A DNA stretch of 57,263 nucleotides from a bacterium. GTDB taxonomy: Bacteria; Patescibacteriota; Minisyncoccia; UBA6257; JAUSGH01. Under the pieces are notes generated by a model. It saw only the letters and a list, made by a program, of their open reading frames with translations. It was not told the origin of the DNA and did no database searches. Location of the stretch: NCBI GenBank assembly GCA_030649055.1, contig JAUSGH010000004.1, positions 1 through 57,263 of the forward strand. The letters run 5' to 3'. Made by a program: the position numbers and the translations under genes. The first letter of the stretch is position 1. Every line of letters begins with the position of its first letter. This document shows positions 15,583-27,463 of this stretch, one piece after another.

Positions 15583-15607
15583 TCGGGCGCATGCTATAAT
15601 TATGTTA

Positions 15608-16675
15608 ATGGCTTCTCCGTTCAAAAACGCATTTTTACATGTCAGCGTGCAGGAGCAAATTCTTTTTGCTCGGCATCTTGCGATTATGACGAAAGCCGGC
15701 ATGTCACTGTTGGATAGCTTGCAAATGTTGAAGCGCCAATCAAAGTCGCGGTCCATGAAGATTATTCTGGAGGAGGCGACGAGGGCGGTGACAAATGGGC
15801 AGTTTCTCGCGGTGGCGCTGGAACCGTACGCAAACGTGTTTGGCGAGCTTTTTATCAACATCCTTCGCATCGGTGAGTCCAGCGGCACGCTGCCGGAAAA
15901 CCTGAATTATCTCGCGCAAGAATTGACGAAGAAGCGGCAGCTGGCGACAAAAATTAAAGGCGCGCTGTTTTACCCGTTAATTATTTTAATCGGCACGACC
16001 GGCATCATCACCTTGCTTGTCACGTTTGTGCTGCCGAAGATTCTGCCCGTGTTTCAATCACTCAATGTCACCCTGCCGCTTCCGACGCGCATCCTTATTG
16101 GGATTTCTGATTTTGCCCAGCACTACACGTTGTATATGTTCGCGGGGCTTGCCGTGATCATTGTCGCGTTCATGGCGCTGCTTCGCATACGGTCATTCCA
16201 GTACCTGGTGCAGCGCGGACTACTTGCGTTGCCGATTGCGGGTACCTTAATGCAGCAGGTGAATTTGGTGAGTTTCGCGCGCACACTCGGGATACTGTTG
16301 AAGAGCGGCTCAAAGATTGTCGAGTCGGTGAATACGGCCGGGATGACGCTCAACAACTTGGTATTCCGGGACGCGCTCTCCGGCGCCGCCGACGATATCA
16401 GAAAAGGGGAGCAACTCTCCGAGCATTTGGGAAAACGGGCGAACCTCTTTCCGGATATGCTGACGCAGATGATTATGGTGGGCGAAAGCACGGGAAATTT
16501 AAGCGAAACACTGCTGTATCTCGGGGAATATTACGAGGAGGAAGTGGATAACGCGACCAAAAATCTTTCCACGGTGCTGGAGCCGCTGTTGCTCATTATT
16601 ATGGGATTGATTGTCGGCTTTGTTGCAATCGCGATTATTACGCCGATTTATAGCATCACGCAGGGAATTAAGTAG
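15608..16675 (+). CDS. pilC: Type IV pilus inner-membrane platform protein (PilC/GspF)
   Basis: PilC is the membrane platform on which the assembly ATPase acts. Its 355 residues hold the duplicated GspF domain. Repeat 1 is cytoplasmic (FARHLAIMTKAGMSLLDSLQ, then GESSGTLPENL), followed by TM helices near residues 120-145. Repeat 2 (SFARTLGILLKSGSKIVES, then VGESTGNLSETLLYL) is followed by the last TM (LEPLLLIIMGLIVGFVAIAI). I chose ATG 15608, which lies 7 bases after TATAAT (15595-15600) and gives MASPFKN; ATG 15602 is one base after the box. The operon continues to the pilin genes after a repeat at 16689. Confidence 0.92.
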   Translation: MASPFKNAFLHVSVQEQILFARHLAIMTKAGMSLLDSLQMLKRQSKSRSMKIILEEATRAVTNGQFLAVALEPYANVFGELFINILRIGESSGTLPENLNYLAQELTKKRQLATKIKGALFYPLIILIGTTGIITLLVTFVLPKILPVFQSLNVTLPLPTRILIGISDFAQHYTLYMFAGLAVIIVAFMALLRIRSFQYLVQRGLLALPIAGTLMQQVNLVSFARTLGILLKSGSKIVESVNTAGMTLNNLVFRDALSGAADDIRKGEQLSEHLGKRANLFPDMLTQMIMVGESTGNLSETLLYLGEYYEEEVDNATKNLSTVLEPLLLIIMGLIVGFVAIAIITPIYSITQGIK

Positions 16676-16688
16676 CGACTACACCCTT

Positions 16689-16762
16689 TGTCATTCCGGA
16701 CTTGATCCGGAATCCAGAAGCGCGGATACGTTTTCTGGATTCCCGCCTTCGCGGGAATGACA
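16689..16762. repeat. 74-bp palindromic repeat, TGTCAT-family
   Basis: TGTCATTCC at 16689 and GGAATGACA ending at 16762 are perfect terminal inverted repeats. Internal CCGGA/TCCGG and CCCGC/GCGGG hairpins resemble those at 1389-1467. Confidence 0.8.
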
Positions 16763-16787
16763 TGAGTAGCCTAACGTCTAAAGCGCT

Positions 16788-17222
16788 ATGAAAAAAAATA
16801 CCGAACGCGGCGCGACACTCATGGAAATAGTCGTGGTTATCGGCATTGCCGGCGTGCTGTTGGGCATGGGGCTTCCGATGACGTGGGATTTTTACTTAAC
16901 CAGCGAACTGCGCGCGGAACGTGCAAATGCTGTTCAATATCTCCGCGTCGCCCGCACGCGCGCGCTGAGCAACAGGGGGGAATCAGCGCACGGCGTGGCG
17001 CTTGTGGGCGCCAACTTTGTTGTTTTTGAAGGGGCAAACTACGCGGGGCGGAATGTGATGCGCGACCAGGCATTTCCGCGGTCATTCGGAATTACGGCAA
17101 CGGGCACGATGGAGTTTGTGTTTGCGGCTCTTTCCGGCAGAAGTGCTTCGGCGTCCACGACCTTTATGACCGTAAGCGGTTCAACAACGGTGCGCGTAAA
17201 CACGGAGGGGCTGGTCCAATAA
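16788..17222 (+). CDS. Type IV prepilin-like protein (GspH/FimT type)
   Basis: It has 144 residues. The leader is short and basic (MKKNTERG) and is cut before ATLMEIVVVIGIAGVLLGMG, a class III signal with Glu at position 5 of the mature protein. The mature body is small and beta-rich (GVALVGANFVVFEG, SGSTTVRVNTEGLVQ), as in minor pilins of the GspH/FimT kind. It is the first of five pilin-like genes after pilC and its leader lacks the octamer repeats found in the next ones. It probably primes or tips the pilus. Confidence 0.85.
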   Translation: MKKNTERGATLMEIVVVIGIAGVLLGMGLPMTWDFYLTSELRAERANAVQYLRVARTRALSNRGESAHGVALVGANFVVFEGANYAGRNVMRDQAFPRSFGITATGTMEFVFAALSGRSASASTTFMTVSGSTTVRVNTEGLVQ

Positions 17223-17226
17223 AAGC

Positions 17227-18699
17227 ATGGGAGCAAGTAAACAAAAAAACACGGGAACGAAAGGGTCGCGTAACGTTGCTTCATTGCTTCATTGCTTCAT
17301 TGCTTCACATAATGGACAGTCACTCGTAGAAGTGCTTGTCGCTATTGGCATTTTCTTGGTTATCACGGGGAGCGTTGTTACGATGATTTCCGGCGGACAG
17401 GATTTGCTTTCTGATACCACGCAGGCGACACAGTCGGCTGAATATGCCGCTGAGGGCTTGGAGGCGGTGCGCGCCATTCGCGACGCGGATTGGGGCGCCT
17501 TAACGGACGGGACGCACGGCATCACACTTTCCGGAAATGATTGGCAGTTCAGCGGATCATCGGACGCGAGGGATATTTATACGCGAAGCGTGAGCGTCGC
17601 GACTGTGGACGCGAACACAAAAATCGCGACCACCACTGTTACGTGGATGACTGACCCGCTCCGTCCGCAACGCATTGAAATTGCACAAACGCTTACCGCG
17701 TGGCAGACTGCGTCACCAACGCTTTGTACGTTGAGTGGCGATTGGGCGCATCCGCGCATTTTGGGAACGGCGGATTTGGGACCCGGGCGCAGCGGAACGG
17801 ACGTCGAGGTTGCGACAACGACGGTATACGTCTCCAGCATCGCTTCTGATTCGAGCAAAAAAGATTTTTCAATCTATAACGCGTCAAATCCCGCGAGCTT
17901 ACAGTTGCTTGGTGAGGTAAACGTTGGGGGCGGTATTAACGAATTTGTATTGCATAGCGGATATATATTTGCGGTTTCATCGGACGACTCCGAAGAGTTT
18001 AAGGTGATTGACGTGCGGAACCCCGCCGCTCCGGTTGAGGTCGCGGACATCAATCTTGGCGGAAGCGGCAACGCGAACAGCATCGCGTATTGGAAAGACC
18101 ATGTGTTCATCGGCAGAAATTATAGCAGCACTTATGAAGAGTTGGTAGTTGTTGACGTCACGAATCCCATAAATCCCCTTATCGCCATGGAACTTGATAT
18201 AGGCGCGTCAATGCTCAAGATGTACGCCTTCAATGATCGGTTGTATTCCGCATACTATAATTTAACCGAGGATATTATCGTGCGCGACATTACAAACCCC
18301 CCCGCGGCGCCGCTTGTCACAACCTGGGACATTGGCACCGATGACGTGTATGGTATGTACGCCGGCGGCGATGAGTCGGTATTTATGGTCGGGACGGACT
18401 GGGGACATACAGTGAAATACGTTGATGCGACAACCGTCACAAGCCCTATCACCGTCGCCTCAGTGGATGTTGGCGGCCGCGCGTGGGATGTGTATGGCGT
18501 TGGAGCGTGGGCGGTGGCGGGAACAGACAATTCTAATGCGGAGTTTCAGGTGCTCGATATTTCAACGCCGAGCAACATGCGCGTAGTGGCCTCATTGAAT
18601 CTCTCACAGCTTATCAGCGCGACCGCGTGTTATGGCAATGCGGTATACGCCGCGGTACGGAGCAACGATGCGCTGCAGATTATCGGACCGGGACTATGA
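17227..18699 (+). CDS. Prepilin-like protein fused to an LVIVD-type beta-propeller
   Basis: It has 490 residues. The N-terminal leader of about 30 residues is partly encoded by four TTGCTTCA octamers. It is followed by the pilin helix GQSLVEVLVAIGIFLVITGSVV. Residues about 150-490 hold repeated LVIVD motifs: FSIYNASNPASL, FKVIDVRNPAAPVEVAD, LVVVDVTNPINPL, IIVRDITNPPAAPL and FQVLDISTPSNM, a pattern of propeller blades seen in surface proteins. This suggests a pilus-tip or surface adhesin carrying a propeller head. The cleavage site is less classical (N-G before QSLVE). The stop overlaps the next start by ATGA, so the two are probably translated together. Confidence 0.85.
   Translation: MGASKQKNTGTKGSRNVASLLHCFIASHNGQSLVEVLVAIGIFLVITGSVVTMISGGQDLLSDTTQATQSAEYAAEGLEAVRAIRDADWGALTDGTHGITLSGNDWQFSGSSDARDIYTRSVSVATVDANTKIATTTVTWMTDPLRPQRIEIAQTLTAWQTASPTLCTLSGDWAHPRILGTADLGPGRSGTDVEVATTTVYVSSIASDSSKKDFSIYNASNPASLQLLGEVNVGGGINEFVLHSGYIFAVSSDDSEEFKVIDVRNPAAPVEVADINLGGSGNANSIAYWKDHVFIGRNYSSTYEELVVVDVTNPINPLIAMELDIGASMLKMYAFNDRLYSAYYNLTEDIIVRDITNPPAAPLVTTWDIGTDDVYGMYAGGDESVFMVGTDWGHTVKYVDATTVTSPITVASVDVGGRAWDVYGVGAWAVAGTDNSNAEFQVLDISTPSNMRVVASLNLSQLISATACYGNAVYAAVRSNDALQIIGPGL
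17276..17307 (+). repeat. Four tandem TTGCTTCA octamers in a prepilin leader
   Basis: Four exact 8-bp units (17276, 17284, 17292, 17300) lie inside the coding leader. Eight is not a multiple of three, so gain or loss of one unit would shift the frame. Confidence 0.85.
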
Positions 18700-19256
18700 C
18701 AATAAAGCAACGAAGCAACGAAGCAACGAAGCATGAAGGCAAGCGAGCCATTGCCCCACTGTTTTTATGTTTTTATGCTTTTATGCATGGCCGCCGTGGC
18801 CTCTCGCTTATTGAAACATTGCTCTACACGCTTATCGTTGGAATTATTATAAGCGGATTTTTATTTTTTATTTATGGCGTTTTGACGGCGACGGAGCGGT
18901 CACAGGGGAATATGGAGCTCGCGGACGCGAAGTTGTTTGTTGAGCAAAAGTTGGAATGGGCGCTCATGGGAGTTTCCGCAATCACTGTTCCGGCAGCGAA
19001 CGCGACCGGCGGGACGCTCACACTCACGAAGGTGAATTTCGGCGAAAATCCGATTACGGTTGACGCGCAAAACGGCGTACTGCGCTTCCAAGCCGGCGCA
19101 GGAACTCCGGTGCCGATTACACCGCCGGAAGTTGCGGTGTCAAGCCTGTTGTTTGACCACATTGTCTCCGGCTTTCACGAGCGGCTGCGCGTCACGGCGC
19201 TTCTGACGGGACGCTACGCGACCACAAGTATTGACCAGACGATTATCGTCAAATAA
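18696..19256 (+). CDS. Type IV prepilin-like protein (GspJ/PilW-like)
   Basis: It has 186 residues, with ATG 18696 overlapping the previous TGA. The long leader (MTIKQRSNEATKHEGKRAIA onward) is built from three AAGCAACG octamers and a T-rich stretch, and ends RRG. The mature start LSLIETLLYTLIVGIIISG has the usual Glu5. The body contains a charged helix (ELADAKLFVEQKLEWALMG) and a beta domain. Its size and position suggest a minor pilin. Downstream spacing to the next gene is 5 bases. Confidence 0.82.
   Translation: MTIKQRSNEATKHEGKRAIAPLFLCFYAFMHGRRGLSLIETLLYTLIVGIIISGFLFFIYGVLTATERSQGNMELADAKLFVEQKLEWALMGVSAITVPAANATGGTLTLTKVNFGENPITVDAQNGVLRFQAGAGTPVPITPPEVAVSSLLFDHIVSGFHERLRVTALLTGRYATTSIDQTIIVK
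18705..18728 (+). repeat. Three tandem AAGCAACG octamers in a prepilin leader
   Basis: There are units at 18705, 18713 and 18721. They are related by reverse complement, with changes, to the TTGCTTCA units at 17276. Confidence 0.8.
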
Positions 19257-19261
19257 AAAAC

Positions 19262-19735
19262 ATGGAAGCAAAAAAACAAAAAAACATAAAAGCAAAAGGG
19301 CGGAGAGGCGTTGCTTCGTTGCTTCGTTGTTCTATTGTTTCATTTGATGACCGTCGCGAAGCCGGCTATCTCGCGATCACCGTCGCGCTCATTTTTTCGC
19401 TTATCGCGCTTTTTGTGTCGGCAGCGCTCGGCACACGAACGCTCCTCGCGCGGTTTAATCGGTTAGAGTATCTCAATAAGAAAACGAGTTTTGTTATCGC
19501 GCGTTCATGCGATGACGTTGCGTTACTCCGCCTTCGCGCGGATCCTGCCTACGCCGGAAACGAAACGGTCAGCGTCGGTGGTACGACCTGTACGATTTTC
19601 CCTATTGAGAGTGTGCCGCCGAACACGGTTATTAAAACGAAGGCGGTCGTTTCACGCGCGACTACAAACCTCAAATTTACTGTGAATTCGAAATTACAGC
19701 ATATCTCACTTGAGGAGCTGACCGTACTCCCGTAG
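19262..19735 (+). CDS. PilX-like minor pilin / pilus-associated membrane protein
   Basis: It has 157 residues. The leader MEAKKQKNIKAKGRRGVASL is again repeat-like at the DNA level, with TTGCTTCG units. The hydrophobic helix EAGYLAITVALIFSLIALFV lacks the classical FTLIE box but has the layout of PilX proteins (E-A/G, then a long helix and ALGTRTLLARF). Two cysteines are in the small C-terminal domain (SCDD, TTCTIF). It follows the previous pilin by 5 bases and is presumably in the same operon. Confidence 0.7.
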   Translation: MEAKKQKNIKAKGRRGVASLLRCSIVSFDDRREAGYLAITVALIFSLIALFVSAALGTRTLLARFNRLEYLNKKTSFVIARSCDDVALLRLRADPAYAGNETVSVGGTTCTIFPIESVPPNTVIKTKAVVSRATTNLKFTVNSKLQHISLEELTVLP

Positions 19736-19764
19736 ACTGATGATATGAATCGCAAAGGATTTAC

Positions 19765-19888
19765 CCTGTGCTACAAGCGGTGGCGAAGCGCAAAATTATT
19801 TATCTTATAACACATCTTATGCCAAGCTCGTCATCGCGTATATTAAAGAAGTTCGGAACAACTCAACCTTCCACCGCTTGTAGCACGG
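19765..19888. mobile_element. 124-bp TIR element inserted in a pilin gene (7-bp target duplication)
   Basis: The ends CCTGTGCTACAAGCGGTGG (19765-19783) and CCACCGCTTGTAGCACGG (19871-19888) are inverted repeats. The flanks GATTTAC (19758-19764) and GGTTTAC (19889-19895) look like a 7-bp target duplication with one change. It carries no transposase frame. It is the same family as 24428-24552 and 41437-41552, although the inner half of the arms differs while still pairing. Confidence 0.8.
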
Positions 19889-20328
19889 GGTTTACGCTTA
19901 TTGAACTTATCATCGCGAGCGCGCTCGTGATGATTACGGCCGGCGTGGCGATGGTGTGGCTAAATCCCTCGGCTCAATTCGCTTCGGCGCGCAATACGCG
20001 GCGTAGCGCGGATATTAACGCCATCGCGAACGCCATCGGGCAGAAAATCGCGGATAATAGGGGCGTTTTTACGTGTACCGGCGGGGCGCTTCCCACGAAT
20101 GCGGCGACAATAATGGCGACGAGCTCGGGTAATTATAATATTGCGCCGTGTCTCGTTCCCGCATATCTCGCTACATTTCCTTATGATCCTGCGGCGCCGG
20201 GGGCAAGCTACGTCAGCGTCAGCAGTTATGATTCGAGGTACACGGTGCGCGCAAGTTCAACGACGGGAATCATCACCATCGCGGCGCCATACGCGGAGCT
20301 TGGCGCGGTTATAACGGTGTCGCGCTGA
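19819..20328 (+). CDS. Type IV pilin (candidate major pilin) with a transposon-derived leader
   Basis: The mature part GFTLIELIIASALVMITAGV is a textbook class III pilin start, followed by a body with two cysteines (FTCTGG, APCLVP). The original start was probably ATG 19745 (MNRKGFTL), but a TIR element now separates that leader from the pilin, and that frame stops inside the element. ATG 19819, inside the element, is in frame and gives a 24-residue leader ending STG before FTLIE, so prepilin peptidase could still process it. A GTG at 19768 is also in frame. The gene is either rescued by the element or an inactive allele. Confidence 0.65.
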   Translation: MPSSSSRILKKFGTTQPSTACSTGFTLIELIIASALVMITAGVAMVWLNPSAQFASARNTRRSADINAIANAIGQKIADNRGVFTCTGGALPTNAATIMATSSGNYNIAPCLVPAYLATFPYDPAAPGASYVSVSSYDSRYTVRASSTTGIITIAAPYAELGAVITVSR

Positions 20329-20389: not shown

Positions 20390-20785
20390 ATGGGTGAAGA
20401 CGCTGGAAAAAATAAAAAGATTGTTCTCGTTGTTGAGGATGAAAAGCCGCTCGCGGAGGCAATCGGGGAGTATTTGGGCGGCGTGGGGTACGACGTGAAG
20501 AACGCCTATAACGGCAACGAAGCGCTGAAAATGCTCCAGACGATGACGCCCGACGTAGTGCTCTTGGACATCGTGCTTCCGGAGATGAACGGCGTCGCGG
20601 TGTTGAAGGCGATGCAGGACGAGTCCTCGCCCGCGAGAAACGTCCCGGTGATTGTATTTAGTAATCTTGTCGGGGAGAAGGCGTGGATTGAGCAGATGGG
20701 GCTGCGCGTCGTGGATTATCTTGTGAAGGCAAATAGTTCGTTGGCCGAGGTTGCAGCAAAAGTGAAACAAGTATTAGGGCTTTAG
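20390..20785 (+). CDS. Response regulator receiver protein (CheY-like, stand-alone)
   Basis: It has 131 residues and is a single receiver domain without an output domain. The acidic pair is in VEDEKPL, the phospho-acceptor Asp in VVLLDIVLPEMNG, the Thr/Ser position in VIVFSNL and the Lys in LVKANSS. It probably receives phosphate from a histidine kinase such as those at 24.5-27.5 kb. TACACT (20377-20382) lies 7 bases before ATG, fitting a leaderless transcript. It follows the pilus operon, so control of pilus activity is one possibility; the acyltransferase/ThiF genes start 41 bases downstream. Confidence 0.88.
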   Translation: MGEDAGKNKKIVLVVEDEKPLAEAIGEYLGGVGYDVKNAYNGNEALKMLQTMTPDVVLLDIVLPEMNGVAVLKAMQDESSPARNVPVIVFSNLVGEKAWIEQMGLRVVDYLVKANSSLAEVAAKVKQVLGL

Positions 20786-20826
20786 AAGACGGGCGCATCA
20801 CCAATGAGTACAGTTGATTAAGTTCT

Positions 20827-21993
20827 ATGACGCGCAAAAAACCATCACGCGCTGACGCGGCACTCGCTCTGCAGCGCGATCCGTATCTCGAAATAGTGCC
20901 GCGTCTCGAGCCGCGGGCGTTGCGCGCGCTCATACGCGAGCTTCCGAAGCCCGCCGCGCGCTATTGCGCGGGCGGGGTAGCGATTGATGTGTTCTGCGCC
21001 AAGCATTTGTATCATCCGTCGTGGGTAAACCCCTCATTATTCCGTCTTGCCATTGACGCGCGCGGCTCGTATTACCGTTATGGGGATTATCCGCCGTTGG
21101 ACGCGCTGGATCGTAAAGCCGCGGTATACCTCGCGCGTATTCGCTATAGCGACGGCCGCGGAGAAAATAAAATCCCGACGGAAGAATGGCTGAGCGCTCG
21201 TTTTATCCCATGGCGTGGAACGCCGTATGGCTACGATGATTTAAAACTCTGCGCGCACAAAGGAAGGGCTATTGACTATTGGGTGCAGAAAAAGTTTCCG
21301 CGTCCGGAGGGCACGCCGTCGTTGGTATCCATCTCCCGCGTGTGCGGCATTCCTCCGTATCCAACGCGCGCAAGCGATAAGCAAGGAGAAACGCGTCGGG
21401 TAAAGCACGCGTACACGGCGTTAGCGTTTACGGCAATGAATGACGCGTTTTTTAACGCCGGCAATCGCGCGGCGCAGGAGTTCTCCCATGTGACAACGCT
21501 GATGCACGACGCGCTGGTTGGCCGGGCGCTTACATACACTAAAGGGAAAAAGCGCGCCGCGATGCGCTTTGTTCCGGCGCATCGGACGCTGGGACTAAGG
21601 GCGCCGGTACGGCTCGCCCGCGACGGGTTTGCGGCATCGTATTGCCACCGGTTTCCACAATATTTTTTGGATATAAAGAAGCTGCTCGGCGCATTGCGCG
21701 GTGTTGTGCGTCGTGGCGACATATCACACGCAACGCTTGCGCATTATTTAGGCGAAACAGCTGATCCGGAAGCGTTACTGCGGTTTGATGATATGCACAT
21801 CTCGGCGCTTCATGGGTTGGGGAAGTTGCTTTCCGCGGAGGGGCCGCTCCATGCCGCAAAAATTTCCGGCGAAGAATTGCGCCGCAGGGTGAGTAGGGTG
21901 CCCGACGGTCCCGCGTTGCACATGATGACAAGTGTTGCGTGGTCGGCGAGCGTCGCGATGTTTTGCCGAGATGCCGGTATAGCAAAGTTGTAA
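20827..21993 (+). CDS. Acyltransferase-like protein (autoinducer-synthase / FeeM-like GNAT, tentative)
   Basis: It has 388 residues and is basic, with no TM helix. The central part resembles N-acyl amino acid synthases and LuxI-related GNATs: KAAVYLARIRYSDG, then TEEWLSARFIP, then SLVSISRVCGI (like the ExSR motif), and later MHDALVGRALTYTKGKK with AHRTLGLRAPVRLARDG (like the 'small helix, then G-x-R-x-P' end). This match is by eye and is the main uncertainty. If correct, it would transfer an acyl chain to an amine to make a lipid or signal. It ends 4 bases before the ThiF-like gene (ATG overlaps the stop region), so the two are almost surely co-translated. Confidence 0.5.
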   Translation: MTRKKPSRADAALALQRDPYLEIVPRLEPRALRALIRELPKPAARYCAGGVAIDVFCAKHLYHPSWVNPSLFRLAIDARGSYYRYGDYPPLDALDRKAAVYLARIRYSDGRGENKIPTEEWLSARFIPWRGTPYGYDDLKLCAHKGRAIDYWVQKKFPRPEGTPSLVSISRVCGIPPYPTRASDKQGETRRVKHAYTALAFTAMNDAFFNAGNRAAQEFSHVTTLMHDALVGRALTYTKGKKRAAMRFVPAHRTLGLRAPVRLARDGFAASYCHRFPQYFLDIKKLLGALRGVVRRGDISHATLAHYLGETADPEALLRFDDMHISALHGLGKLLSAEGPLHAAKISGEELRRRVSRVPDGPALHMMTSVAWSASVAMFCRDAGIAKL

Positions 21994-21997
21994 TGCC

Positions 21998-23260
21998 ATG
22001 GGTAGCGTGAAACCAATACTGTTGGATGCCGCCGCGGCCGACGCAAGCGGAGCGGTACGGTATGGCAAGGCGGGCGAGGCGCTTGTCCGTCTTCCCGACG
22101 GAAGCCAGCGACATGTGCCACCCGATCATCAGTACGATGTAACGCAGGCAACAATTTTCGGATTAAATGAACGCCTGACTGCGGCGGCAACCTCTCCGGT
22201 TGTCGGCGCGGGAGGGCATACGCTGCGCGACGAGTTTAACGACGAGTGGAACCGGTACGCGGAGGCAATGGGCAACACGGGCGCCGGAGTTACCTATGGC
22301 GTGTACGCGTATTACGCGGAGCGGAACGACTTAGTGCGCTATTGCCCAAAGTATTGGCATCGCGTGGTGGCGGTCGCGAGCAACGCGAAGCTTATTTCTG
22401 ATCCGATCGGCGAGCTCTCGTGGCGTGAAATACGGGATATTTTTGACGCCTCTGTGATTGCGGTTGCGGGCGCATCTGTCGGAGGAAGCATTATCCACGC
22501 CGTTGCCATGGATATTCGGCCCGACAATCTTAAAATCGCGGATAAATCCTTGTATAAGATGGAAAATATCAACCGCGTGCGGCTGGGTTATTGGGACATG
22601 GTACGTCCGAACGCGGATCGTGAAGCTGTCGCGGATATGATGCTCCGCAATAAGGCCGACGTAACCGCCGCGCAACTGTATTCCATTGACCCGTACCTCA
22701 ACGTGTATGTATACAACGAAGGGATTACCGAAAAAAATATCGCCCGATTTTTTGAAGGCGAAGGAGAAGAACCGCCGATAAACATACTCATAGAAGAGGT
22801 TGATGACCCGCGTATCAAGTTGTTGCTTCGTGAGGAGGCGCGTCGCCGAAGGGTGCCGCTTATCATGGCGACAGACGTGGGATCCGCGGTACAGCTTGAT
22901 ATATCGCGCTACGATTTGGACGGTGCGTTGCCGCTCACGTATGGCACAAGCGACGAAGAGCTGTACGAGAAAATGAACGCGGTGTACGGTAATCCCGGTG
23001 ACCGCAAGACGTTTTTCGCGTTTGTAGACGCGTTACTCGGGACCCAATACCGCCAGGGTGAACTTGCGTTGGTTATTGAAGGCAAAACGGAAATCCCGAC
23101 ATCCACCATCATTCCGCAACTCGGGTCAACCATAGCTGTTGCCGCGGGCATTGTCGCGGAAACAGCCGCGCGGATTCTTTTGGGAGAGACGTATCCGCCA
23201 CGAGTTTTTTTTAATAAGCGCACGTTTGAAGCTAAACGGTTTCCTCCGGATCGGAGGTAA
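21998..23260 (+). CDS. ThiF/E1-like adenylyltransferase (Rv1355c-like)
   Basis: It has 420 residues. The E1/ThiF nucleotide-binding core is residues about 150-330: VIAVAGASVGGSIIHAVAMD (Gly-rich loop 158-164), then KIADKSLYKMENINRVRLG, matching the D-x-D-x-V-x-x-x-N-x-x-R ATP/Mg site. PLIMATDVGSAVQLDISRYD and a C-terminal helix (TIAVAAGIVAETAARIL) follow. An additional N-terminal domain of about 140 residues is unassigned. There is no obvious CxxC zinc site or catalytic Cys. In actinobacteria the Rv1355c family fuses such a ThiF domain to a nitroreductase; here a nitroreductase lies convergently, overlapping by 29 bp. It probably activates a carboxylate by adenylation; the substrate is unknown. 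Confidence 0.8.
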   Translation: MGSVKPILLDAAAADASGAVRYGKAGEALVRLPDGSQRHVPPDHQYDVTQATIFGLNERLTAAATSPVVGAGGHTLRDEFNDEWNRYAEAMGNTGAGVTYGVYAYYAERNDLVRYCPKYWHRVVAVASNAKLISDPIGELSWREIRDIFDASVIAVAGASVGGSIIHAVAMDIRPDNLKIADKSLYKMENINRVRLGYWDMVRPNADREAVADMMLRNKADVTAAQLYSIDPYLNVYVYNEGITEKNIARFFEGEGEEPPINILIEEVDDPRIKLLLREEARRRRVPLIMATDVGSAVQLDISRYDLDGALPLTYGTSDEELYEKMNAVYGNPGDRKTFFAFVDALLGTQYRQGELALVIEGKTEIPTSTIIPQLGSTIAVAAGIVAETAARILLGETYPPRVFFNKRTFEAKRFPPDRR

Positions 23261-24353
23261 GGATTATTTCATTCAGCGGCAACCGCGGCGCAAACGGCCG
23301 GAGTCCGTCCTCGGCGCGCTTCGGGTATCCCGCGCGGAACAGCGCGAGCATTTTGCGCGTGGTGCCGAGCGTCGCCGCGAAAATGCGGTTAATCAGCGCG
23401 ACTTCCACGATTCCGGCATGTATGGCGGTGGCAACGCCGTCGCCGGTAAAAAGCAGCAACAGTCGTTCAAGGGCTATGCCGGCGTAAATCCACGCTTGAG
23501 GATCGTCCGCGGCACCGGTCAAGACCGCGATGAGCGGCGATTTTTCAATACCGAGTTTTCCTGCCATGGCAAACCGTAGCCCGTCTTCGGGTTCAAGGTG
23601 GCCATCTCCCAAAAGTCCTTTATGCATCCGGAGCGCTTGCGCGTCGCTTAATCCGAAATTGTTCCCCGGCATGCCGACGCGGGAAATGGTATCGTTCGGC
23701 AAAAGCCAGGCGCCAAGTTCTCTGCTGAACTTGGGCGAGTTAATGACATAGCCGTCGGCTTGTCCTTGAAACTCGGCCATGGCCAGCCGGCGGACGGGGT
23801 CGGTAACACAATGCAGCGCGATCGGAGTATCGGCAATCGCGGCTTTGGCGCGCGCGACAAGATCCGTCGGAAGCGGTTTAGCGGGGTCAAACTCGGCCCG
23901 GACAACTTTGCGTGTAAAAATCGCGCGAAAAACTTTTTCTTCGCATTTCGCATCACCGTGTTGTAGCTGTATGGTTGCGACGTGGAGCGGGGGAACGCGC
24001 GCGGCATTAGCTGACGGTCTGACTTGCGCCGGAAGTAGCGGCGCGATATCAATAGCCGCGATAAAGCCGTAGTGAGCGGCCGCGGTACGGATATGTTCAA
24101 TCGCGCAGCCGATGCTTACCATCGCCTGCCGTCCGCGGACGTCGGACGCGGGGAGTACTCCCGGGCGATGGAGAAAAACGTCAATGGTCATTGTGTCGGG
24201 ACGAAGAAAAAATCGCCAGGGTTGCGTGTTGTGCGTTGATGGAGCAAGGTGCCCCGCGGCAATAAGTATGCGGAGCTGCTGAAGTGCTGGAAGCGCGGCA
24301 AAATCCCGCCGATTGTAGACATTGAGGCGCCGAGCGTCGCTTATTGTGTCCAT
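23232..24353 (-). CDS. Nitroreductase-family protein (Acg / Rv3131-like)
   Basis: It has 373 residues. The motif AGHLAPSTHNTQPWRFFL (residues 33-50) is the FMN-binding start of Acg-type nitroreductases, which are double-length and often bind but do not turn over flavin. Later GMPGNNFGLSDAQ and GIEKSPLIAVLTG match the same class. The start ATG 24353 gives MDTISDARR and lies 6 bases after TATGAT on the minus strand; the longer frame from 24494 enters a transposable element. Its 3' end overlaps the ThiF-like gene by 29 bp. By analogy to ThiF-nitroreductase fusions it may act in the same pathway even though it is on the opposite strand (inference). Confidence 0.85.
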   Translation of the reverse strand: MDTISDARRLNVYNRRDFAALPALQQLRILIAAGHLAPSTHNTQPWRFFLRPDTMTIDVFLHRPGVLPASDVRGRQAMVSIGCAIEHIRTAAAHYGFIAAIDIAPLLPAQVRPSANAARVPPLHVATIQLQHGDAKCEEKVFRAIFTRKVVRAEFDPAKPLPTDLVARAKAAIADTPIALHCVTDPVRRLAMAEFQGQADGYVINSPKFSRELGAWLLPNDTISRVGMPGNNFGLSDAQALRMHKGLLGDGHLEPEDGLRFAMAGKLGIEKSPLIAVLTGAADDPQAWIYAGIALERLLLLFTGDGVATAIHAGIVEVALINRIFAATLGTTRKMLALFRAGYPKRAEDGLRPFAPRLPLNEIILTSDPEETV

Positions 24354-24427
24354 ACTGCAATCATAGCATGCGGGCGGAGTCACCGGCTGAGGAAATACGC
24401 ACCGATACGCTATAATGAATGTATGCC

Positions 24428-24552
24428 CCGTGCAACAACTTCGATCGTGGGGTGCATGGCAAAAGATTCTGAATATTGATATGAACATGCCCATCTTTTC
24501 AATAGCATCGCTTGTCGCATATTACAAACATAAATCGAAGTTGTAGCACAGG
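24428..24552. mobile_element. 125-bp TIR element directly before a histidine kinase gene
   Basis: The arms begin CCGTGCAACAACTTCGAT (24428) and end ATCGAAGTTGTAGCACAGG (24552). The flanks GTATGCC/GTATGGA keep 5 of 7 bases of a target duplication. The orientation is opposite to the copies at 19765 and 41437. The kinase ATG starts two bases after the element, within the duplicated GTATG. Confidence 0.75.
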
Positions 24553-24554
24553 GT

Positions 24555-26699
24555 ATGGAAAGCGCAACTGCATTCGCGCCGCTTATCAGCCAGCGGGTGG
24601 AGCTCATCCTCGGCCTTATCGCGTTTGTGTCCTCAACATATTTGGGGCTGATGGTGTATTTGCGTAATCCGAATAGCGCCACGCATCGTCTGTTCGCGGT
24701 CATCGCGGCGCTTATTGATACGTATATCGTCGTTAATTATTTATCGCTTCATCCGCCGGTCGCGACCAGCGACAACCAGTTATTTTGGATCCGTGTTGTT
24801 ATGTTTGTGACGTCGTTTATCGGGCCGATGCTTTTTTTGCTCGTGCATACATTTCCGCGCGACACCATCACGCTCCGCAAGCGTTATCTCGCGCCGTTGC
24901 TCATACTCATGTTTCTCTCGGCGACGCTTGCGATGACGCCGTTGGTGTTTGAGAAGCTGGAATACATAAGCGGCGAACCGATTCCGACTCCGGGAATCGG
25001 CATGCCCGTATTTGTGCTGGATTTCGGCGGACTGTTTTTCTGGAGCATCATTTGGCTCATATACAAATATCGGAAAACAAGCGGCAAGGAAAAGGCGCAG
25101 CTGCAATACTTTCTTTTCGGAATTCTTTTCACGTTCGCGATTATGGGCGTCGCGTCCAACCTGACCGTCGTACTGGGAAAAACATCCGCGTTTGTTTTTT
25201 TGGGCCCCATCGTGCCCGTGATTCTTATGGCGTTTGTCGCGGCATCTATCGTGAAGCATCGTTTCCTGGATATTAAGCCGGTCATTGCGCGCGCGGTGTC
25301 ATACACCTTGCTTATCGTTATACTCGGCTTCCTTTACACCGGAGTGCTCTTCGGGTTTACAACGCTCGTGCTCGGGGGTTCGGTTGAGCCGCGTGTTGTG
25401 GCGTTAAGCGTGCTGCTTGCCGGAATCGCGGCGCTAACGTTTCAGCCCGTGCGCCGGCGCATTGAAAAGTTGACTGATCGGATCTTTTTCAAGGCGCAGT
25501 ATGACGCGGACGCGCTGCTCGGAACCCTCACGCGACACATGATTGAAACCATTGATCTTGGCGAGCTGGCAAAAAAGGTGTTGGGTACGCTTATTGCTGA
25601 AATGCGCGTCAGTAAAGCCGCTTTTCTGCTTCTTGACCATCACGCGGTTGTCGGCGCGAAGGGTGTGGGGTACGACGAGGAAGCATTGCGCCAGGCGCCG
25701 CTGGATTCCCTGTTGCATAGCCAGACAATCGCGGACCAGAACATCGTGACGTTTGAGGATATTCACAATAACCCCGAAGGGCTTGATGTGTTGCGGAAAT
25801 ACGACATCGCGCTGATGATTCCTATCCGCGTCGGCGGTGACGAAGTCGCGATTTTGGCGCTTGGGCCAAAGCGCGCAGGGGATCTCTATAGCAGTAAAGA
25901 TATAGGACTGCTTTCCATTTTTTCTTCGGAGTCCGGCATCGCGATACAAAACGCGCGCCTCTACAACGACTTAAAAGAGAGCGATGAGATGAAGTCGCAG
26001 TTTATTTCCGTTGTTTCGCATCAGATGCGCACGCCGATTTCCGCCATTCGTTGGAGTCTGGAACTGCTGCAGCAGAAAAATCTGGAGGAGGCGAAGCGCG
26101 TGGAATTCTTGACGAACGCGCACCATAACGCGATCTTTATTGCCGGCCAGCTGGACGACGTGCTGACCGTGCTTGCCATCCAAAGCGAGAAGGGCGGCCT
26201 GCAAAAGAGCGCGTGCGAAGTGCACACGCTTTCCGTTGACATTGTGTCGTCGCTACAGCACCAAATTCAAGATAAGCATTTAGACGTGAAACTTGAACTT
26301 TCCGGCAACGCGTCGCTGATTTTATGCGACGCGAAGAAAATTCAAAAAGCGATTCAGGTGCTTATTCAAAACGCGATTACCTATACTCCGGAAGACGGCC
26401 ACATTGTCATTCACTCGGAAAACCGGACGTTGAACGGGAAAAAGCATTTTGTACTTTCGGTTTCCGATACCGGCCTCGGACTGACCGACGAAGAGAAGAA
26501 ACGGATTTTTGATAAGTTTTTCCGCAGTGAGGAAGCGCGTCTCATTGCTCCGGACGGCATGGGGTTGGGCATGTTTATCGCGGAAACATTTGTTGCCCAG
26601 CACGGCGGCACGCTATGGGTTGAGTCAGCCGGACGCGGAAAGGGCGCGACATTCTTTATTGCGTTGCCGGTGAATACCGACGATGTTACGATAAGGTGA
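24555..26699 (+). CDS. 7TM-GAF sensor histidine kinase
   Basis: It has 714 residues. The N-terminal region has about eight hydrophobic helices (residues 15-295) of the 7TMR-histidine-kinase type and ends in FLDIKPVIARAVSY. A GAF domain spans about 325-470. HisKA has the phospho-acceptor H489 in SVVSHQMRTPISAIRW. The ATPase domain carries the N box QNAITYTPE, G1 SDTGLGL, F box FDKFFRS and G2 GMGLGMF. It senses an unknown membrane or cytosolic cue and likely phosphorylates a stand-alone receiver (20.4 or 38.0 kb). The stop overlaps the next kinase by ATGA. The promoter and start region were remodelled by a TIR element. Confidence 0.93.
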   Translation: MESATAFAPLISQRVELILGLIAFVSSTYLGLMVYLRNPNSATHRLFAVIAALIDTYIVVNYLSLHPPVATSDNQLFWIRVVMFVTSFIGPMLFLLVHTFPRDTITLRKRYLAPLLILMFLSATLAMTPLVFEKLEYISGEPIPTPGIGMPVFVLDFGGLFFWSIIWLIYKYRKTSGKEKAQLQYFLFGILFTFAIMGVASNLTVVLGKTSAFVFLGPIVPVILMAFVAASIVKHRFLDIKPVIARAVSYTLLIVILGFLYTGVLFGFTTLVLGGSVEPRVVALSVLLAGIAALTFQPVRRRIEKLTDRIFFKAQYDADALLGTLTRHMIETIDLGELAKKVLGTLIAEMRVSKAAFLLLDHHAVVGAKGVGYDEEALRQAPLDSLLHSQTIADQNIVTFEDIHNNPEGLDVLRKYDIALMIPIRVGGDEVAILALGPKRAGDLYSSKDIGLLSIFSSESGIAIQNARLYNDLKESDEMKSQFISVVSHQMRTPISAIRWSLELLQQKNLEEAKRVEFLTNAHHNAIFIAGQLDDVLTVLAIQSEKGGLQKSACEVHTLSVDIVSSLQHQIQDKHLDVKLELSGNASLILCDAKKIQKAIQVLIQNAITYTPEDGHIVIHSENRTLNGKKHFVLSVSDTGLGLTDEEKKRIFDKFFRSEEARLIAPDGMGLGMFIAETFVAQHGGTLWVESAGRGKGATFFIALPVNTDDVTIR

Positions 26700-27463
26700 T
26701 GGAATATCTCAAAAGACAAAGTGTGGGCAACGTGAAGAAGTCACCGGACGTCGCGGGCGGGCAGGAATTCATCGCGGTAATCGTGCACCAGCTGCGCACG
26801 CCGCTTTCGGTTATCAAGTTTGTTACGGAGGAATTGCAGCGCATGGAAGGCAAGAATCTGACCGAAAGCCAGCATAAAAAACTCGCCGCAATTATGGAGG
26901 CGGACGAGCGCGCGTTAAACTTAGTCAATAATTTTCTTGGCGCGGCGGCGCTCTTGGGCGGGGAGCAACATCTGGAAATCAGCGAATGCAATCCGCGGCA
27001 TGCGTTTGAAATTATCGTAGATACCTTGCGCCCGATGGCAGCGGTAAAAAATCAGGAATTGGTGTTCACCGCGCCGCATGAAGTGGAACCGGTGCGCATA
27101 TGCAACGAGTACCTGGACCGCGCGTTCCAGAACATCTTAGACAACGCGATAAGTTATGGGGATGAAAATTCAACCGTTACGGTGGCACTCAAGAAACTTG
27201 AGAGCGAGTATGAGGTAAGCGTGAACAATCGTGGTCCGGTTATTCCGGAAAACGAATTGCCGGATATGTTTCAAAGATTTCACCGACTGCCCGAAGCGGA
27301 GGCAATCAAGCCATCAGGATCGGGGCTTGGCCTCTTTATTGCGAAGGCCGGAGTGGAGTTGAATGGCGGGCGAATCTGGATAACATCCGACAAGCGCGAT
27401 GGGACAACGGTGTACTTTACGATTCCCCTGCCAAAACAAACTCACGGCGTTATCCACGGATAG
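26699..27463 (+). CDS. Soluble histidine kinase without sensor domain
   Basis: It has 254 residues, consisting only of HisKA and HATPase_c. The phospho-acceptor H30 is in VIVHQLRTPLSVIKF; the N box is NILDNAISYGDE and the G2 box SGSGLGLFIAKAG. The G1 box is weak (VNNRGPVIPE instead of DxGxG), so ATP binding may be reduced. ATG 26699 overlaps the upstream kinase stop (TGA 26697-26699), implying translational coupling. It may dimerise with the upstream kinase or relay its signal. Confidence 0.88.
   Translation: MEYLKRQSVGNVKKSPDVAGGQEFIAVIVHQLRTPLSVIKFVTEELQRMEGKNLTESQHKKLAAIMEADERALNLVNNFLGAAALLGGEQHLEISECNPRHAFEIIVDTLRPMAAVKNQELVFTAPHEVEPVRICNEYLDRAFQNILDNAISYGDENSTVTVALKKLESEYEVSVNNRGPVIPENELPDMFQRFHRLPEAEAIKPSGSGLGLFIAKAGVELNGGRIWITSDKRDGTTVYFTIPLPKQTHGVIHG

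Follow-up and report, generated by a model that had tools for sequence, protein, structure and literature searches.

A predicted N-acyltransferase, ThiF and nitroreductase trio with a conserved neighbouring 7TM histidine kinase in Patescibacteria: a candidate acyl-oxazolone-kind synthase-receptor module

The locus described here lies in a stretch of 57,263 nucleotides, analysed as a whole and referred to as the window, from a patescibacterial genome of 875 kb in 23 contigs rated 100% complete. Its first gene codes for a stand-alone receiver (RR; 20390..20785, forward strand; 131 aa, Pfam Response_reg 1.6e-21) without an output domain, followed 41 bases downstream by the gene of a 388-aa protein, hereafter X388 (20827..21993, forward strand). 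Four bases further on begins a gene for a ThiF/E1-like protein (21998..23260, forward strand), and a nitroreductase-fold flavoenzyme of the Acg/FDO type (23232..24353, minus strand) overlaps the latter convergently by 29 bases. The listed open reading frame of this flavoenzyme reaches 24494; homologues support an internal ATG at 24353, giving a protein of 373 aa. Two histidine kinase genes complete the group, both with Pfam HisKA and HATPase domains: HK1 (24555..26699, forward strand), with a HisKA_7TM-GAF-HisKA-HATPase architecture, and HK2 (26696..27463, forward strand), in which no sensor domain was recognised, the two overlapping by 4 bases. The initial annotation had reported this layout, including the spacing of the receiver, the nearly overlapping X388 and ThiF genes, the convergent nitroreductase, the two downstream kinases and the separateness of the three enzyme genes, and the open reading frames bear it out throughout.

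Within 20827-24353, the G+C content of the X388 and nitroreductase genes (0.578 and 0.586, respectively) exceeds that of the flanking genes (about 0.51-0.53) which, together with the patchy distribution, may hint at acquisition. Directly upstream of the receiver and on the same strand (15602-20328), a pilC-like gene and pilin-like genes of the type IV pilus type were found. Two loci of relatives (L073 and L074) likewise have pilin-like genes close to HisKA_7TM kinases, and a third (L027) contains a pilC-like gene; pili may be an output of the system.

In the mycobacterial acyl-oxazolone pathways, aromatic amino acids are N-acylated by TyzA or TrzA. The N-acyl amino acid is then cyclised at the expense of ATP, either by TyzB or by the ThiF domain of TrzS, and an O2-dependent desaturation by TyzC, or by the FDO domain of TrzS, gives the acyl-oxazolone (PMC10404671, PMC12856293). 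ThiF-nitroreductase fusions of the Rv1355c family had been called poorly understood in the initial annotation, a view overtaken by the description of TrzS as tryptazolone synthase (PMC12856293). The ThiF protein of the window matched Pfam ThiF (3.4e-9), and its best NCBIfam match was the Rv1355c family (NF005901, 7.5e-38, 130 bits, below the cut-off of 476). In an alignment of 14 proteins, three of them plasmid relatives from Actinomycetota, the residues G158xS160xG162, D182, NxNR193, K219 and D269 were invariant. The position of D269 is taken by D202 in the Mycolicibacterium TY66 Rv1355c protein, and the equivalence of D269 to the adenylation-site Asp of TrzS, D217, was deduced from the offset. 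The ThiF fold and the general family names would also suit a sulfur-carrier or cofactor pathway, in which the protein would activate a ThiS/MoaD-like partner and the nitroreductase would be an ordinary quinone or flavin reductase. This we consider very improbable: zinc CxxC pairs occur in none of the 14 aligned proteins, the window protein holding a single Cys, the cassette includes no small carrier gene, and the best family match is Rv1355c rather than MoeB or ThiF. A classical sulfur-carrier ThiF was rejected on the absence of CxxC. We thus predict an ATP-dependent cyclase of the TyzB / TrzS ThiF-domain type. One other PF00899 protein is encoded in the genome, on another contig (L017:9491-11625), where this second ThiF-like protein (220 aa, without CxxC) adjoins a 491-aa protein amid sugar-metabolism-like genes.

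The flavoenzyme matched Pfam Nitroreductase (9e-6) and, in the PDB, the Acg structure 2YMV (2.4e-8). Its best NCBIfam match was the Acg family (1.9e-56; 191.9 bits, cut-off 199), and against the Rv1355c family it scored 56 bits (cut-off 476). Equivalents of TrzS R540 and Q651 are apparently not kept, in a mapping which is uncertain, the alignment being loose in that region and built without the TrzS sequence itself. From these family matches, an O2-dependent desaturase of the TyzC type is predicted.

Co-occurrence of the three genes in relatives had been set beforehand as a test of the cassette, and it was observed in genomes of the same order, in genomes of the same class and on a Magasanikbacteria contig. 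Members of the X388 family turned up in 6 of 244 same-order genomes (that of the window among them), in 5 more same-class genomes, and on the Magasanikbacteria contig (L010), which was found through its ThiF gene. X388 is located beside ThiF wherever the contig is intact; the ten further loci in which the two adjoin include nine with the nitroreductase, the exception being L014. Three gene orders were seen (X388-ThiF-nitroreductase, ThiF-nitroreductase-X388 and ThiF-X388-nitroreductase), and this variation argues that the linkage is functional and more than a matter of inheritance. In L029, the ThiF and nitroreductase parts form a single fusion protein, with X388 and a kinase alongside; the score of this fusion against the Rv1355c/TrzS family is 791 bits (cut-off 476). 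In the phylogenetic analysis, the window ThiF belonged to a clade of seven X388-type proteins that was well supported and stood away from TrzS on a long branch; the remaining X388-type loci fell in two more places, that of L029 grouping with the plasmid Rv1355c proteins.

The reading of X388 as ACYLTRANSFERASE was examined by sequence, fold and motif. Searches of its sequence against Pfam, NCBIfam and the PDB returned nothing meaningful, and neither X388 nor five homologues matched the Pfam Autoind_synth or FeeM models. The initial annotation had regarded it as GNAT/FeeM-like and had proposed structure prediction as a way of exposing an unrelated fold. The AF2 model was confident (pLDDT 84.6, pTM 0.85), with helices and strands in the order of GNAT proteins and autoinducer synthases. 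Foldseek searches with this model gave nothing at E <= 0.001; the best match was the GNAT-fold protein Naa60 (E 0.25), and the weaker ones, several of them also GNAT-fold enzymes, included Mom, SpeG and N-myristoyltransferase mixed with unrelated proteins. X388 carries a LuxI motif (D92xxD95x5Y101...R125xxP128), and the signature D-x2-D-x5-Y...R-[LFM]-x-P was present in 11/11 X388 homologues, 9/10 plasmid AHL synthases and 1/505 background open reading frames, a count that is descriptive, as the pattern was picked after the resemblance had been noticed. Without being given any hint, hhalign co-aligned the signature residues and the SSRMC/SSRFC motif with FeeM/LuxI profiles (P 0.019 against LuxI, 0.0026 against a mixed FeeM/LuxI set, and 0.5-0.6 against two unrelated profiles). 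Alignments with a single TraI and with the Rhodococcus gene beside an Rv1355c protein (possibly a TrzA) were not significant, although the latter picked out the same YxRYG...LD stretch. The profile comparison suggested in the initial annotation came out divided, negative with Pfam and positive in the co-linear hhalign alignments, and the homology of X388 to FeeM/LuxI proteins is moderately, not conclusively, supported.

On an alternative reading, X388 is not an amino acid N-acyltransferase, and the carboxylate modified by the cassette is a different one, such as that of a peptide or fatty acid taken up by the cell, with ThiF still adenylating and the flavoenzyme still oxidising. This reading draws on the lack of a significant FeeM/LuxI match by sequence or fold, on a C-terminal part that extends about 150 residues past the LuxI-like core, and on the failure to find a CoA or ACP pathway in the genome. 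We rate it as decidedly unlikely in view of the LuxI motif with its co-linear profile alignment, and of L029, where X388 holds the place of the acyltransferase beside a TrzS-class fusion. A plain LuxI-type AHL system was rejected, there being no Autoind_synth match and ThiF being a constant partner. On the combined evidence of the AF2 model, LuxI motif, hhalign alignments and ThiF adjacency, X388 is predicted to be a LuxI/FeeM-superfamily N-acyltransferase, acting at the first step in the position of TyzA/TrzA.

A relative detected with the ThiF profile was present in 39 of the 244 genomes. Twenty further ThiF loci were taken for comparison; one (L057) proved to be a truncated X388-type locus, and the other 19 (L038-L056) form a second cassette, commoner than the X388 type, with ThiF, usually the nitroreductase and, replacing X388, a PaaK-like protein of about 510 aa whose profile matched phenylacetate-CoA ligases (1.2e-16). 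In L042 this ligase was not called, another open reading frame shadowing its place. Several of these loci add a Glu/Leu/Phe/Val dehydrogenase, for which the best family was tryptophan dehydrogenase ScyB (5.9e-95, below cut-off). A 7TM kinase lies near 17 of the 19 loci, being absent from L038 and L056. ThiF and the kinase occur in both cassette types and are therefore the constant part, the nitroreductase nearly so, while the predicted acyl-amino-acid-forming part is exchanged.

HK1 is the only HisKA_7TM protein in the window genome. A HisKA_7TM kinase was adjacent to the trio, or at a distance of one or two genes, in every X388 locus on a sufficiently long contig (the window, L010-L014, L028-L031 and genome G127, on contig L015), the contigs of L027 and L057 ending too early to show one; all nine kinases aligned matched HisKA_7TM, HisKA and HATPase. 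Across the order, HisKA_7TM was present in 31/39 genomes with a ThiF relative vs 26/205 others (Fisher p = 1.6e-16, a value that is too small since the genomes are related). A model of the 7TM region, predicted by AF2 without an alignment, showed seven helices at low confidence (pLDDT 59). The two-component framing proposed initially was upheld for HK1, which belongs to the conserved unit; receivers occur near many related cassettes, often but not always, and RR is a possible phospho-acceptor for the kinases. No conserved counterpart of HK2 was seen among the neighbours of the relatives' cassettes.

Kinases of this class also occur without ThiF, in about 26 genomes. Two of them adjoin proteins above the Pfam FeeM and Autoind_synth cut-offs (L080 and L084), and others lie near a methyltransferase (L073), a PlsC-type acyltransferase (L078), or genes with no evident link. 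Their recurrence beside acyl-type synthases supports, without proving, the notion that this sensor class binds acyl-type products; HK1 is a predicted receptor. Proteins of about 290-300 aa are encoded directly upstream of HisKA_7TM kinases in three loci (L073:3747-4652, L070:3812-4690 and L082:1134-2018), the one in L073 being methyltransferase-like, and are possibly another type of synthase. In two more (L076:3363-4816 and L078:5146-6579) this place is occupied by a gene pair coding for a protein of 254-267 aa, that of L078 being the PlsC-type one, and a HAD-like protein.

From the observed gene content, conserved linkage and catalytic motifs, we infer the following for substrates, product, sensing, phosphotransfer and output. 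X388 would N-acylate an amino acid, probably an aromatic one, from an acyl thioester; the ThiF protein would adenylate the carboxylate, so that the amide oxygen could close a five-membered oxazolone ring; and the flavoenzyme would use O2 to desaturate the alpha-beta bond. HK1, the 7TM-GAF kinase encoded alongside, would then sense the product, or the N-acyl-dehydroamino acid formed by its hydrolysis, and would phosphorylate a receiver such as RR. Should X388 require an acyl thioester, the donor may have to be supplied by the host or a neighbour, because ACP, a PF00501 ligase, CoaE and PlsC were not detected in the window genome, with the qualification that PF00501 would miss PaaK-like ligases such as those of the second cassette, so that a divergent ligase may be present. 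An external source of acyl thioester would be in keeping with an epibiont, and the signal would then depend on the host, which we offer as speculation.

An N-acyl (dehydro)amino acid or an oxazolone, whatever its use, is the probable product of the trio. Such a compound might serve as an antimicrobial, as a membrane component or in host manipulation, with the kinase adjusting the pathway to some other cue. Antimicrobial N-acyl tyrosines and a possible connection between oxazolones and stress have been reported (PMC12856293), an adjacent kinase may merely control its own operon, and the neighbourhood of HK1 and the trio does not prove sensing. We consider this reading unlikely, as the kinase accompanies two different front ends in several gene arrangements, and sensors of its class lie beside FeeM/LuxI-type synthases in other loci, which favours product sensing. 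The cassette is compatible with the small-molecule or lipid signal system envisaged in the initial annotation, and for a synthase-receptor module of the acyl-oxazolone kind, whose N-acyl (dehydro)amino acid or oxazolone would be sensed by its own kinase, we see an even chance. A broader proposal is more tentative and falls a little short of even: a complete circuit for signalling between cells, in which acyl-oxazolones (or N-acyl-dehydroamino acids) are made by a dedicated synthase and perceived by a cognate 7TM receptor kinase. This circuit would have spread through Patescibacteria in two chemical versions, one with a LuxI/FeeM-like acyltransferase and an acyl donor borrowed from the host, the other with a PaaK-like ligase, with or without the Trp-dehydrogenase-like enzyme.

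The physiological role of acyl-oxazolones is a major unresolved question according to the group that described the mycobacterial pathways (PMC12856293). The conserved neighbouring kinase suggests a specific and testable role, signalling, together with a candidate receptor for these compounds, and the pathway would be extended to minimal, probably host-dependent CPR cells; its second, PaaK-like front end was not found in the open-access papers searched.

Among known systems, TyzA-TyzC-TyzB of Mycobacterium tuberculosis (Rv2336, Rv2337c, Rv2338c; acyl-tyrazolone) likewise consists of three separate genes, partly on opposite strands, for a LuxI/FeeM-fold acyltransferase, a nitroreductase-fold oxidase with an Acg-like lid and a ThiF cyclase (PMC10404671). 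It is actinobacterial and has no linked receptor kinase described, and X388 is longer and not recognisable as a relative by simple sequence search. In TrzA-TrzS (Rv1356c-Rv1355c, tryptazolone), ThiF and desaturase act together, with an essential ThiF Asp and an acyltransferase neighbour. The relative in L029 has a fusion of the TrzS class, whereas in the window the two proteins are separate and score under the cut-off of the family, and the neighbours in M. tuberculosis are c-di-GMP genes instead of a 7TM kinase. OxzA-OxzB of Pseudoalteromonas rubra, compared by description only, also produces acyl-oxazolones with an acyltransferase and a ThiF-flavoenzyme (PMC10404671); the latter is a fusion protein, and no kinase is reported. 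The same trio (NasY, ThiF and nitroreductase) is linked to N-acyl dehydrotyrosines in the stieleriacine, thalassotalic and kyonggic acid clusters of other phyla, with no receptor kinase described in the parts of that report consulted (PMC12479983). Within CPR bacteria, pairs of a LuxI homologue and a kinase, and of CqsA and CqsS, have been predicted in which a synthase adjoins a sensory kinase (PMC7567580), in agreement with our kinases beside FeeM/Autoind_synth proteins in L080 and L084; their predicted signals are AHLs and hydroxyketones, and ThiF and nitroreductase are unmentioned. No paper found in the open-access literature connects the oxazolone trio to a receptor kinase or to CPR. Hence, as far as that literature goes, the enzyme logic is known and CPR synthase-kinase pairs are known for other signals, and the oxazolone trio with a kinase in CPR is a new combination of the two.
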